Shown: piece after piece, positions 47,267-49,956 of the stretch
How positions within the stretch are numbered: position 1 is the stretch's first letter
Layout: every line of letters starts with the position of its first letter
Assembly: GCF_001591405.1 (NCBI RefSeq)
Contig: NZ_BCUV01000006.1
Location: 682,001-746,000, forward strand
DNA from: Janibacter terrae NBRC 107853
Lineage (GTDB): Bacteria > Actinomycetota > Actinomycetes > Actinomycetales > Dermatophilaceae
Direction: 5' to 3'
DNA length: 64,000 bases
Notes under the pieces: generated by a model
The model's input: the letters and a program-made list of their open reading frames with translations, nothing else
Told to the model about the DNA's origin: nothing
Database searches by the model: none
Translations under genes and position numbers: made by a program

Positions 47267-48847
47267 TCAGCGCACGGGCACCCCGGCCCGCATCAGCCCG
47301 TAGGTGACGCCGTCGAGGAGCGCCGACCACGAGGCCTCGACGATGTTGGGCGCGACGCCGACGGTCGTCCACGAGGTGTGCTCGTCGCTGTGCTCGATGA
47401 GCACGCGGGTCGTGGCGTCGGTGCCGTGCGCGGCGTCGAGGATGCGCACCTTGTAGTCGATGAGCTCGATGCCCTCGAGCTCGGGGTAGACGACCGACAG
47501 CGCCTGCCGCAGTCCCTGGTCGAGCGCGTTGACCGGGCCGTTGCCCTCCCCCGTCGCGACGAGCCGCTGCCCGCCGGCGACGGCCTTGACGGTCGCCTCG
47601 GACAGCGCGTCGGCGCCGCCCTTGGCGTCGATCATGATCCGCCAGGACTCGATCTGCGCGTACTCCGGGGCGTCCTCCTCGAGCTCGCGGCGCAGCAGCA
47701 GCTCGAAGCTCGCGTCGGCCGCGTCGAAGGTGTACCCCTGCTGCTCGAGTGCCTTGACCCGCGCCAGGACCCGGGTCAGGGCGTCGTCGTCACCGGAGAG
47801 GTCGACGCCGAACTCGCGGCTCTTCAGCTCCACGGTCGCGCGCCCGGCCATGTCGGAGACGAGCATGCGCATGTCGTTGCCGACGTCCTTGGGCTCGATG
47901 TGCTGGTAGAGGTCGGGATCGACCTTGATCGCGCTCGCGTGCAGCCCGGCCTTGTGCGCGAAGGCTCCCGACCCCACGTACGGCTGCCGGGAGAAGTGCG
48001 GGAAGTTGGTCACCTCGCTCACCGCGTGCGCGATGCGGGTCGCGTCCTGGAGGCGGTGCGGCTCGACGAGGTCCACGCCGAGCTTGAGCTGGAGGTTGGC
48101 GACGACGGTGATGAGGTCGGCGTTGCCGGTCCGCTCGCCGTAGGCGTTGACCGTGCCCTGCACGTGGTCGGCGCCCGCCTCGACGGCGGCCATGGTGTTG
48201 GCGACGGCGCAGCCGGTGTCGTTGTGGCAGTGGACGCCGAGGCGCGCGCCGGTGGCGGCGATGACGTCCGCGACCGCGTCGCGGACCTGCCCCGGCAGCA
48301 TCCCGCCGTTGGTGTCGCACACCGCGACGACCTCGGCCCCGGCCTCGTGGGCGGCGCGCACGCAGGCCAGCGCGTAGTCGCGGTCGAGGTGGTAGCCGTC
48401 GAAGAAGTGCTCGCCGTCGACGATCACCGTGCGGCCCTGCTCGCGCAGGTGGGTCACGGTGTCGGTGATCATCGCGAGGTTCTCCTCGCGGGTGGTCCGC
48501 AGCGCACGCTCGACGTGGCCGGGGTGCATCTTGGCCACGAGGGTGATGACCTCGGCGCCCGAGTCGAGCAGCGCCTGCACCTGCGGGTCGCTGGCGGCGG
48601 ACCCGCCGGCCCGACGGGTGGCGCCGAAGGCCGCGAGGGTCGCGGTGTGCAGCTGCAGCTCGGTGCGCGCGCGGGCGAAGAACTCGGTGTCGTTGGGGTT
48701 GGCGCCGGGCCAACCCCCTTCGATGTGGGTGACGCCGAGGTCGTCGAGGTGACGGGCGATCGCCAGCTTGTCGACGACGGACAGGTTGATGCCCTCCTGC
48801 TGGGCACCGTCGCGCATGGTCGTGTCGTAGACGTGGAAGCCGTACAT
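47267..48847 (-). CDS. cimA: (R)-citramalate synthase
   Basis: Condenses pyruvate and acetyl-CoA to citramalate, giving a threonine-independent route to isoleucine through LeuCD and LeuB. 526 residues: YDTTMRDGAQQEG (HMGL active site), HCHNDTGCAVAN metal site, GTVNAYGERTGNADL, and a C-terminal LeuA-type regulatory domain (~390-526). The family length and GTVNAYGERTGN favour CimA over LeuA. A 190-nt leader with an attenuator lies upstream. Confidence 0.95.
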   Translation of the reverse strand: MYGFHVYDTTMRDGAQQEGINLSVVDKLAIARHLDDLGVTHIEGGWPGANPNDTEFFARARTELQLHTATLAAFGATRRAGGSAASDPQVQALLDSGAEVITLVAKMHPGHVERALRTTREENLAMITDTVTHLREQGRTVIVDGEHFFDGYHLDRDYALACVRAAHEAGAEVVAVCDTNGGMLPGQVRDAVADVIAATGARLGVHCHNDTGCAVANTMAAVEAGADHVQGTVNAYGERTGNADLITVVANLQLKLGVDLVEPHRLQDATRIAHAVSEVTNFPHFSRQPYVGSGAFAHKAGLHASAIKVDPDLYQHIEPKDVGNDMRMLVSDMAGRATVELKSREFGVDLSGDDDALTRVLARVKALEQQGYTFDAADASFELLLRRELEEDAPEYAQIESWRIMIDAKGGADALSEATVKAVAGGQRLVATGEGNGPVNALDQGLRQALSVVYPELEGIELIDYKVRILDAAHGTDATTRVLIEHSDEHTSWTTVGVAPNIVEASWSALLDGVTYGLMRAGVPVR

Positions 48848-48902
48848 GGTGGGTCTCTCGCTCGGGACGAAGGGGAGGCACTCGCCTCCCGCGGCAGTGT
48901 GA

Positions 48903-48918
48903 CACCTGCTCGTCGCGC
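48903..48918 (-). repeat. Arm C of cimA leader structure
   Basis: The minus-strand RNA here is the perfect 16-nt complement of arm B (49009-49024). It lies downstream of the attenuator terminator, about 55 nt before the cimA ATG. Confidence 0.6.
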
Positions 48919-48981
48919 CCGTCCGTGGCTGGGGTGTGCTCCGGACCCGTCTGCGTCTGCCGTTCCCTGCCCGACAAATGC

Positions 48982-49007
48982 AAAAGACCCCCCGGGTGTG
49001 GGAGGTC
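48982..49007 (-). terminator. Attenuator terminator in cimA leader
   Basis: GACCTCCC pairs with GGGGGGTC (8 bp including one G-U, stable only in minus-strand RNA), 6-nt loop, then TTTT. Sits about 30 nt after the leader-peptide stop. Confidence 0.75.
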
Positions 49008-49008
49008 C

Positions 49009-49035
49009 GCGCGACGAGCAGGTGGCTCGTCGCGC
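49009..49035 (-). promoter_or_regulatory. cimA leader hairpin (arms A and B)
   Basis: GCGCGACGAGC - 5-nt loop - GCTCGTCGCGC, 11-bp perfect stem starting at the leader peptide stop codon. Arm B together with the loop can instead pair with arm C over 16 nt. Confidence 0.7.
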
Positions 49036-49086
49036 CTAGATAATGAGCTCGGCCGCGGTGGCAGCCCGGGTCGTCATCTGCAGCAT
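49036..49086 (-). CDS. cimA leader peptide MLQMTTRAATAAELII
   Basis: 16 codons from the ATG at 49086, with AAGGTGA 7 nt upstream. It ends Leu-Ile-Ile-stop using CTC ATT ATC TAG; ATT is a rare Ile codon in this genome. The stop abuts the 5' arm of the hairpin, so a ribosome stalled for charged tRNA-Leu/Ile would cover arm A. Same design as known branched-chain attenuator peptides. A shorter version could start at the ATG at 49077. The stretch 49100-49155 upstream has no clear promoter box. Confidence 0.7.
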   Translation of the reverse strand: MLQMTTRAATAAELII

Positions 49087-49155
49087 CACCCGATCACCTT
49101 GGCACCACCGCCGCGAGGCATCACCCGACGTCCGCATGATGGGATCGCGGTGCCG

Positions 49156-49956
49156 TCAGGCGAGCCGGGCGAGGAGCCCTTCGAGGGTGACCGCGACGCC
49201 GTCCTCGTCGTTGGTCGGCACGCGATCGGTCGCGACGGCCAGCACCTCCTCGTGCGCGTTGGCCACGGCGAAGGAGCGCCCCGCCCACGTGAGCATCGGC
49301 AGGTCGTTGGGCATGTCGCCGAAGGCCCAGACGTCGGCCGCGTCGATCCCGAGCTCGGCGCACCACCCGGCGAGCGCAGCCGCCTTGGTCACCCCCGCCG
49401 CGGAGATCTCGGCGAGCCCGCCAGCCCCGGAGAAGGCGACGATCGCCCGGTCCCCCACGACCTCGGTGACGACGGCGATGAACTCCTCGTCGCTCAGGTG
49501 CGGGTTGCGCGCGAGCAGCTTGCCGACGGAGGCGTCGGTGAGCAGCTCGATCGAGGGCGTCGTCACGAGGTCCTCGGGGTGGTCGTGGATCGCGGCGAAC
49601 ATGCTCTCGGCGGCCAGCCCCGTGTGCCGCTCGGCGGCGAAGCCGGTCCCGGGCAGCTGCTCGCGCAGGTCGTGCACGATCTCGGTGACGACATCGCGCG
49701 GGATCGAGCGCACCCCGAAGATCCGCCGCTCCGCGACGTCGTAGCGGAAGGCACCGTTGCCGCAGAGCGCCACGCCGCGAGCCCCAACGACGTGCGCGAG
49801 CTCGTCGAGCCAGCGCGGCGGCCGGGCGGTGACCAGGACCGTCTCGAGGCCCGCGTCGGCGACGGCACGAAGGGCGTCGACCGAGCGTCCGGACACGCTC
49901 CCGTCACTGCGCAGCAGGGTGCCGTCGAGGTCGGTGGCGATGAGACGAGGGGTCAC
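49156..49956 (-). CDS. HAD-superfamily hydrolase, Cof type (IIB)
   Basis: 266 residues. Motif I LIATDLDGTLLRSDG, motif II VLVTARPP, and motif IV VWAFGDMPNDLPML with a C2B cap between. Cof-type HADs dephosphorylate sugar phosphates or flavin intermediates; the substrate is unknown. The GTG at 49956 places motif I at the N terminus as usual. It sits between ilvE and the cimA leader. Confidence 0.9.
   Translation of the reverse strand: MTPRLIATDLDGTLLRSDGSVSGRSVDALRAVADAGLETVLVTARPPRWLDELAHVVGARGVALCGNGAFRYDVAERRIFGVRSIPRDVVTEIVHDLREQLPGTGFAAERHTGLAAESMFAAIHDHPEDLVTTPSIELLTDASVGKLLARNPHLSDEEFIAVVTEVVGDRAIVAFSGAGGLAEISAAGVTKAAALAGWCAELGIDAADVWAFGDMPNDLPMLTWAGRSFAVANAHEEVLAVATDRVPTNDEDGVAVTLEGLLARLA

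Follow-up and report, generated by a model that had tools for sequence, protein, structure and literature searches.

The window (the whole 64,000-nucleotide stretch of Janibacter terrae DNA analysed here) carries on its minus strand, in this order, ilvD, leuB, ilvE, a gene for a HAD-type hydrolase and cimA. The cimA gene (47267..48847) was assigned to citramalate synthase using TIGR00977 (628 bits, cut-off 450) and is presumed to be the gene controlled by the elements described here; its nearest relative among the cimA genes fetched was that of J. limosus (95% identity). The 308 bases upstream of cimA contain the cimA leader, and all of the elements named in a first-pass annotation of this DNA were located in it by sequence inspection. 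Every feature below is read on the minus strand.

The putative leader ORF (49036..49089) comprises 17 codons from GTG 49089 and ends in CTC ATT ATC TAG, that is, Leu-Ile-Ile-stop, with the TAG at 49038-49036. The 16-codon peptide of the first-pass annotation is obtained from ATG 49086, and the GTG start is likelier; the Leu-Ile-Ile-stop ending and an 11-bp hairpin starting at the stop were both found where that annotation had placed them. This hairpin, P1, is formed by arm A (GCGCGACGAGC, 49025..49035), which lies immediately 3' of the TAG, and arm B (GCTCGTCGCGC, 49009..49019). The 5' arm (t5, 49000..49008) of a second hairpin, P2, abuts arm B with a gap of 0 nt, and the P2 3' arm and U tract occupy 48982..48993 (3' arm 48993-48985, TTTT 48985-48982). 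The form of P2 suggests a terminator; the annotated 8-bp stem with TTTT was present, and the stem counts 9 bp when a terminal G-U pair is included. The leader through the U tract folded with a z of -3.95, and 0 of 200 dinucleotide shuffles were equally stable. Arm C (48903..48918), an accessory element clearest in Janibacter and Marihabitans, was confirmed as the perfect 16-nt complement of 49024-49009 (P1 loop and arm B) that had been annotated. Just past the U tract, CGGGCAGG (48973-48966) is by eye complementary to the P1 loop and the start of arm B, and a small hairpin containing it seemingly covaries in Janibacter and Marihabitans. Upstream of the ORF, GATCCCATCATGCGGAC (49146-49130) is an imperfect palindrome of the type GTCC-NATNN-GGAC that recurs upstream of many cimA leaders; it looks like a candidate transcription-factor site, which we take to be perhaps bound by a leucine-type regulator.

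The same layout, consisting of a short ORF that closes with Ile codons, P1 and an abutting P2, was present in 77 of 80 fetched cimA loci, the detector used for this count demanding an Ile codon, so that "at least one Ile" holds there by construction. The layout was not seen in L070 (just 68 upstream bases), L046 and L058. In L046 (Kribbia dieselivorans) cimA begins, by eye, directly where an ilvE-like frame ends, which suggests that attenuation was lost there upon operon fusion. The stop codon lay at the base of P1 in 73 of the 77 loci and further in for four (L060, L061, L069, L072). These 73 and the window form the main set of 74 leaders, in which the GCGC of P1 starts at +2 (66 leaders) or +3 (8 leaders), counted from the stop's first base, and the linker between P1 and P2 measures 0 nt in 48, 1 nt in 25 and 2 nt in one. 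When a stop-anchored two-hairpin detector with no amino-acid condition was run on the 79 loci with more than 100 upstream bases and on the window, the main layout was returned from 59 of these 80 real upstream regions and from 0 of 1600 shuffled ones, and 57 of the 59 detections carried at least two Ile codons among their last five. Across the 73 distinct leaders 94.4% of P1 and P2 cells were paired, falling to 40-59% in slid versions. Two-sided changes affected 9 of the 20 P1 and P2 pairs, with 97 two-sided cells against 26.4 in shuffles; within P1 they affected 6 of 11 pairs, and the four basal GCGC pairs were invariant. Both the covariation of arms A and B and the conservation of an Ile-ending peptide, which the first-pass annotation had proposed to look for upstream of related cimA genes, were thus found.

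A covariance model of the leader, R1, was used for genome scans. In the window's own genome it gave one leader match, apart from one weak partial palindrome. Matches were obtained in 16 of 16 Janibacter genomes, in 234 of the 394 class genomes scanned and in 83 of 396 genomes drawn from the phylum, the class and phylum scans (those of more than 40 genomes) having been run with stricter filters that miss weak matches. A set of 117 loci, made up of 58 best-scoring or listed matches and 59 picked by hand for spread, contained 74 before cimA, 35 before ilvB, two before leuA, one each before leuB, leuS and an isocitrate lyase gene, and three without assignment. Eight representative downstream genes were named using NCBIfam, and two others had no match at its threshold. 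At L107, L109, L110, L111, L112, L123 and L132 the ilvB match starts approximately 360-640 bases downstream. The match at L126 and a second one in Janibacter genome L150 lacked the layout and were taken, partly by eye, as chance. Single loci with the architecture were seen before leuS (L119, 1573-1643; tail Leu-Leu-Leu-Ile-Trp, stop within P1), before leuB (L121, 461-533; tail Val-Ile-Ile-Arg) and, in one genome, before isocitrate lyase (L125, 1565-1642; Phe-Val-Ala-Ile-Ala, TAG, P1, P2). A linker of 0-1 nt was shared by 147 of the 150 cimA leaders and 31 of the 35 ilvB leaders, counts in which the relatives are not independent and in which the protein-found and model-found sets may share genomes. 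In 16 leaders (15 cimA, one leuS; L211 is counted in the main layout), including Kineosporia (L061, L072) and two MAGs, the arrangement differs: this second layout has its stop where arm A ends or within the P1 loop.

Codons before P1 followed the downstream gene. At least two Ile codons preceded P1 in 136 of 150 cimA leaders and in 0 of 35 ilvB leaders, whereas two or more Val or Leu codons were seen in 3 of the cimA leaders and in all 35 of the ilvB leaders; for these counts the frame richest in Ile, Leu or Val before P1 was used, which favours branched-chain codons generally and not one of them per gene. The codon table left out four of 195 rows (L115, L116, L126, L150), and the 15 Janibacter loci L135-L149 lay outside the 117-locus set and the codon counts. 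Both leuA leaders had Leu codons before P1. Among the cimA leaders found by protein, 74 of 78 carried two or more Ile codons immediately upstream of P1, as did 62 of 72 found with R1, a model that includes Ile codon columns and so may have enriched this group for Ile. The Val and Leu codons of the ilvB leaders run counter to that bias. Counted to its start, the last branched-chain codon lay 8 bases upstream of P1 in 102 of the 150 cimA leaders and 28 of the 35 ilvB leaders; among the 16 second-layout leaders, 13 have this codon 7-8 nt from P1. The cimA leader therefore has the small reading frame, bearing codons of the pathway's end product, that is expected of an amino-acid attenuator.

Codon choice was equally distinctive. 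The ATT codon, annotated as rare, accounts for 68 of the 172 Ile codons that the leader tails contain and for only 23 of 1298 in 73 cimA coding regions, an enrichment of approximately 20-fold over the cimA genes. The stop was TAG in 170 of 174 main-layout leaders, in one of 16 second-layout leaders and in 13 of 72 cimA genes. TAG may have been retained on account of its G, with which P1 usually begins; slow release at TAG-C is an alternative possible cause. The agreement of codons with the gene, together with the enrichment of ATT, is taken as the strongest evidence that these sequences would function as leaders. It is difficult to reconcile codons that track the product of the next gene, a 20-fold excess of ATT and a TAG so much more frequent than in cimA genes with a constitutive double-hairpin terminator of the upstream gene, in which the ORF would be accidental and cimA would have its own promoter downstream. 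The co-directional ilvD, leuB, ilvE and hydrolase genes upstream would suit such an arrangement, as would TGTCACACT (48904-48896), which follows arm C, is similar to an extended -10 element and could serve as a second promoter of cimA; as an account of the whole region we nevertheless hold it to be extremely improbable.

At the start of the leader, AAGGTGA (49100-49094) had been annotated as a ribosome site. Likeness to a Shine-Dalgarno sequence was not conserved, relatives having CATGGT, CACGCT, CACACT and similar letters at this place. What recurs in the 74 leaders is a group of letters resembling TGnCANNNT, mostly 6-7 nt before GTG or ATG; in the window it corresponds to a putative -10 hexamer, CAAGGT (49096..49101), preceded by TG at 49104-49103, in a conserved pattern and place that marks a candidate start of a leaderless transcript. 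Scoring of the TG and of the A and T of the hexamer gave both in 125, one in 18 and none in 7 of 150 cimA leaders, and both in 4, one in 13 and none in 18 ilvB leaders (n=35). The AAGGTGA region is probably part of the extended -10 element of a leaderless ORF, a reading that is less sure for ilvB because the ilvB leaders score lower for this pattern. Leaderless leader peptides have been reported in Streptomyces (PMC8079986). In the Nocardioidaceae the leader ORF mostly has 8-10 codons, so that, if its start is right, the ORF, P1 and P2 account for nearly all of the leader up to the terminator, with no space for more arms.

Folding was calculated for the 74 leaders with the ribosome placed at different codons. 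The footprint was set with the first free base 13 nt from the A-site codon. This agrees with the 26-nt footprint centred on the codon that was used for M. tuberculosis, as given in the portion of PMC13236596 drawn on here. With the ribosome at the first Ile codon, the mean pair probability of P1 exceeded 0.5 in 72 of 74 leaders. At the last Ile codon it did so in just 20 of 74, and at the stop codon in 0 of 74, only 0-1 bp of P1 being left in every leader. The values for P1 in the window were 0.64, which is only moderate, at the first Ile (with 7 of its 11 bp free), 0.36 at the last Ile (4 bp) and approximately 0 at the stop. First Ile and stop still contrasted when the first free base was set at 12-14 nt, and less so on the Ile side at 15; when it was set at +10 or +11, a terminating ribosome left no more than 2 bp in just 40 of 74 or 59 of 74 leaders. 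The proposal of the first-pass annotation that stalling masks arm A thus looks inverted: a ribosome at the last Ile does disturb P1 in most leaders, as it supposed, and one at the first Ile has the opposite effect. Since P1 is favoured with a held ribosome and blocked with a terminating one, it would take the role of antiterminator; and since so few leaders keep P1 with the ribosome at the last Ile, the first Ile codon (or the preceding Leu) would have to be the main sensor. In the second layout the stop lies inside P1, and an unhindered ribosome would therefore run over arm A.

P2 had a probability above 0.5 in 74 of 74 leaders in every ribosome state, P1 and P2 folding together without conflict, so that thermodynamics alone gives no switch. 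Putative P2 with its U tract, both covarying and placed between ORF and gene, would be the intrinsic terminator of an attenuator. No antiterminator helix overlapping the terminator bases was found, as P1 and P2 abut and share none; nor was a conserved hidden one, t5 pairing upstream with a probability above 0.5 in no more than 2 of the 74 leaders whichever of four ribosome states was assumed (means 0.01-0.24). Arm B, which had been supposed to be freed from arm A, accordingly lacks a conserved partner in the terminator. With no shared bases and no conserved alternative helix, P1, if it controls P2, would act on it by position, by pausing or through a factor.

That the region is an Ile-sensing, ribosome-mediated transcription attenuator of cimA is considered very probable. 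RNA polymerase would initiate at or adjacent to the GTG and so produce a leaderless leader ORF, which a ribosome would translate (17 codons in the window) as far as the Ile codons. Were Ile-tRNA scarce, the ribosome would wait at these codons with its front edge over no more than the lower portion of arm A; the A:B hairpin, P1, would form, ending exactly at the start of the terminator, and would prevent P2 from closing its base at the polymerase, with readthrough into cimA. Were Ile-tRNA plentiful, the ribosome would proceed to the TAG with its footprint over arm A, P1 would not form, P2 would, and transcription would stop. To this entire course, including the positional exclusion of P2 by P1, we give a little better than an even chance. 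The sequences themselves show the layout with its conservation and covariation, the matching of codons to genes, the geometry and the lack of a conserved base-pair switch between P1 and P2; the leaderless start, termination at P2, the direction of regulation and the positional exclusion are inferences. Contact between the hairpins is favoured on the ground that completing P2 would require its 5' base to be pulled back as far as the polymerase, and a stem directly behind would obstruct it. P1 could instead be a polymerase pause hairpin, or be bound by NusA or another protein, and alter termination without contacting P2, the attenuator and its ribosome logic being otherwise the same. The invariance of the four basal GCGC pairs, which goes beyond what pairing needs, and the lack of a conserved base overlap between P1 and P2 would both be expected of such a hairpin, and the fixed spacing of 0-1 nt (73 of 74 leaders) is more simply explained by contact; a pause hairpin or bound factor is judged rather unlikely.

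Complementarity of arm C in the window exceeded that in 300 of 300 shuffles, and each of the 16 Janibacter genomes, counting that of the window, gave the lowest value attainable with the shuffles (1 of 301), with one B:C pair broken in L136, L143 and L144 and a bulge required in L142. By eye, arm C lies within a conserved block of approximately 55 bases. In the alignment of 18 sequences 96.8% of B:C cells were paired, a two-sided change was seen in 2 of 16 pairs (4 cells), and further pair types were no more numerous than in shuffles; in Marihabitans (L007) one change was matched across all three arms. Across the 74 leaders p<0.01 was reached in 8 and p<0.05 in 14, no Nocardioidaceae leader reaching p<0.01. 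The covariation of arms B and C that the first-pass annotation had proposed to look for is limited to two pairs, and arm C, conserved in Janibacter, is not conserved generally. As B:C lies 3' of the terminator, it cannot influence that round of termination. Hiding arm C shifted the accessibility of the cimA start by no more than 0.07 in 7 of 8 genomes (from 0.64 to 0.57 in the window), and a clear rise was seen in L003 only (0.12, from 0.38 to 0.50). Arm C as an opener of the cimA start was unsupported in those 7 genomes, and the idea that B:C clears this start after readthrough was not clearly borne out. The model from which that idea comes, in which a stalled ribosome covers A and frees B, and B:C after readthrough either stabilises the message or clears the start, accords with the B:C pairing of Janibacter, the matched change in Marihabitans and the disturbance of P1 by a ribosome at the last Ile. 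The opposite direction of the geometry at the first Ile and the stop, the narrow spread of arm C and the small effect of hiding it make this model very unlikely. Returning to the attenuator with contacting hairpins, we tentatively propose a wider picture, somewhat short of an even chance: one compact design of stop-anchored hairpin and terminator may serve several branched-chain amino acid genes of Actinomycetota, retuned by two or three codons and switched by hairpin contact at the polymerase, and in Janibacter the third arm may clear readthrough messages of P1 through strand displacement that begins at the loop.

No gathering-score match to Rfam was obtained at the cimA leader or in the loci of 20 relatives (52046 bases). 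For the T-box there was no gathering match over the window, where Rfam gave two tRNAs only, and none at E<=10 in 48820-49200; resemblances to Cobalamin, CC3664 and sR32 in that interval at E<=10 were far below gathering. In the literature listings searched no cimA leader was found, in line with the first-pass annotation, which names attenuators of ilvB and leuA and none of citramalate synthase, and no direct precedent was found for antitermination by a hairpin abutting the terminator. If the proposal is true, leader-peptide control extends to citramalate synthase. The match of codons to genes makes function testable by codon swaps and may aid the annotation of genes of these pathways. In many Nocardioidaceae the system is tiny (approximately 80 nt, 9 codons) and would allow one to ask if hairpins exclude each other by position alone.

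In the E. coli trp attenuator the position of the ribosome selects between two hairpins whose arms overlap (2:3 versus 3:4). Choice by ribosome position would be common to both systems, whereas the cimA hairpins merely touch and the cimA transcript is seemingly leaderless. The ilvB1NC leader of M. tuberculosis resembles the cimA leader in the branched-chain codons of its short ORF, its intrinsic terminator and its ribosome logic; in the portion of PMC13236596 used, which includes reporters and codon mutants, a ribosome at the stop masks the ilvB1 antiterminator and a stalled one permits it. It differs in the gene and in the amino acid sensed, here cimA and Ile, and its terminator and antiterminator are called mutually exclusive in that portion, whereas P1 and P2 share no bases. 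Two hairpins, a branched-chain ORF and a terminator P2 are also shared with the ilvB-II motif of Corynebacterium (PMC10272879, in part). There the ORF covers most of P1, and the antiterminator proposed consists of part of P2 and the P1 loop; unlike this motif, the cimA leaders show no conserved upstream pairing of the terminator 5' arm, the arm that was tested. The LEU element of leuA leaders, as presented in the available part of PMC1262725, has a Leu run, and the cimA tail is Leu-Ile-Ile. The ilvB leaders of Corynebacterium, Mycobacterium and Streptomyces in the same source are alike in placing actinobacterial branched-chain peptides before branched-chain genes; their codon runs overlap the terminator, their mode is described there as unclear, mutating leader codons of Streptomyces coelicolor ilvB is said there to have had no effect, a point against the proposed course, and the part of the text available contains neither cimA nor a stop-anchored P1. 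P1 would be a candidate antiterminator for actinobacterial branched-chain leaders of the sort whose components are missing in that account. The main text of a Streptomyces lividans paper with eight leader peptides (PMC8079986) contains 0 mentions of citramalate or cimA. Ribosome-mediated control of branched-chain genes is known in Actinobacteria for ilvB, and, because the literature listings searched yielded no cimA leader, the cimA leader is judged to be a new variant.
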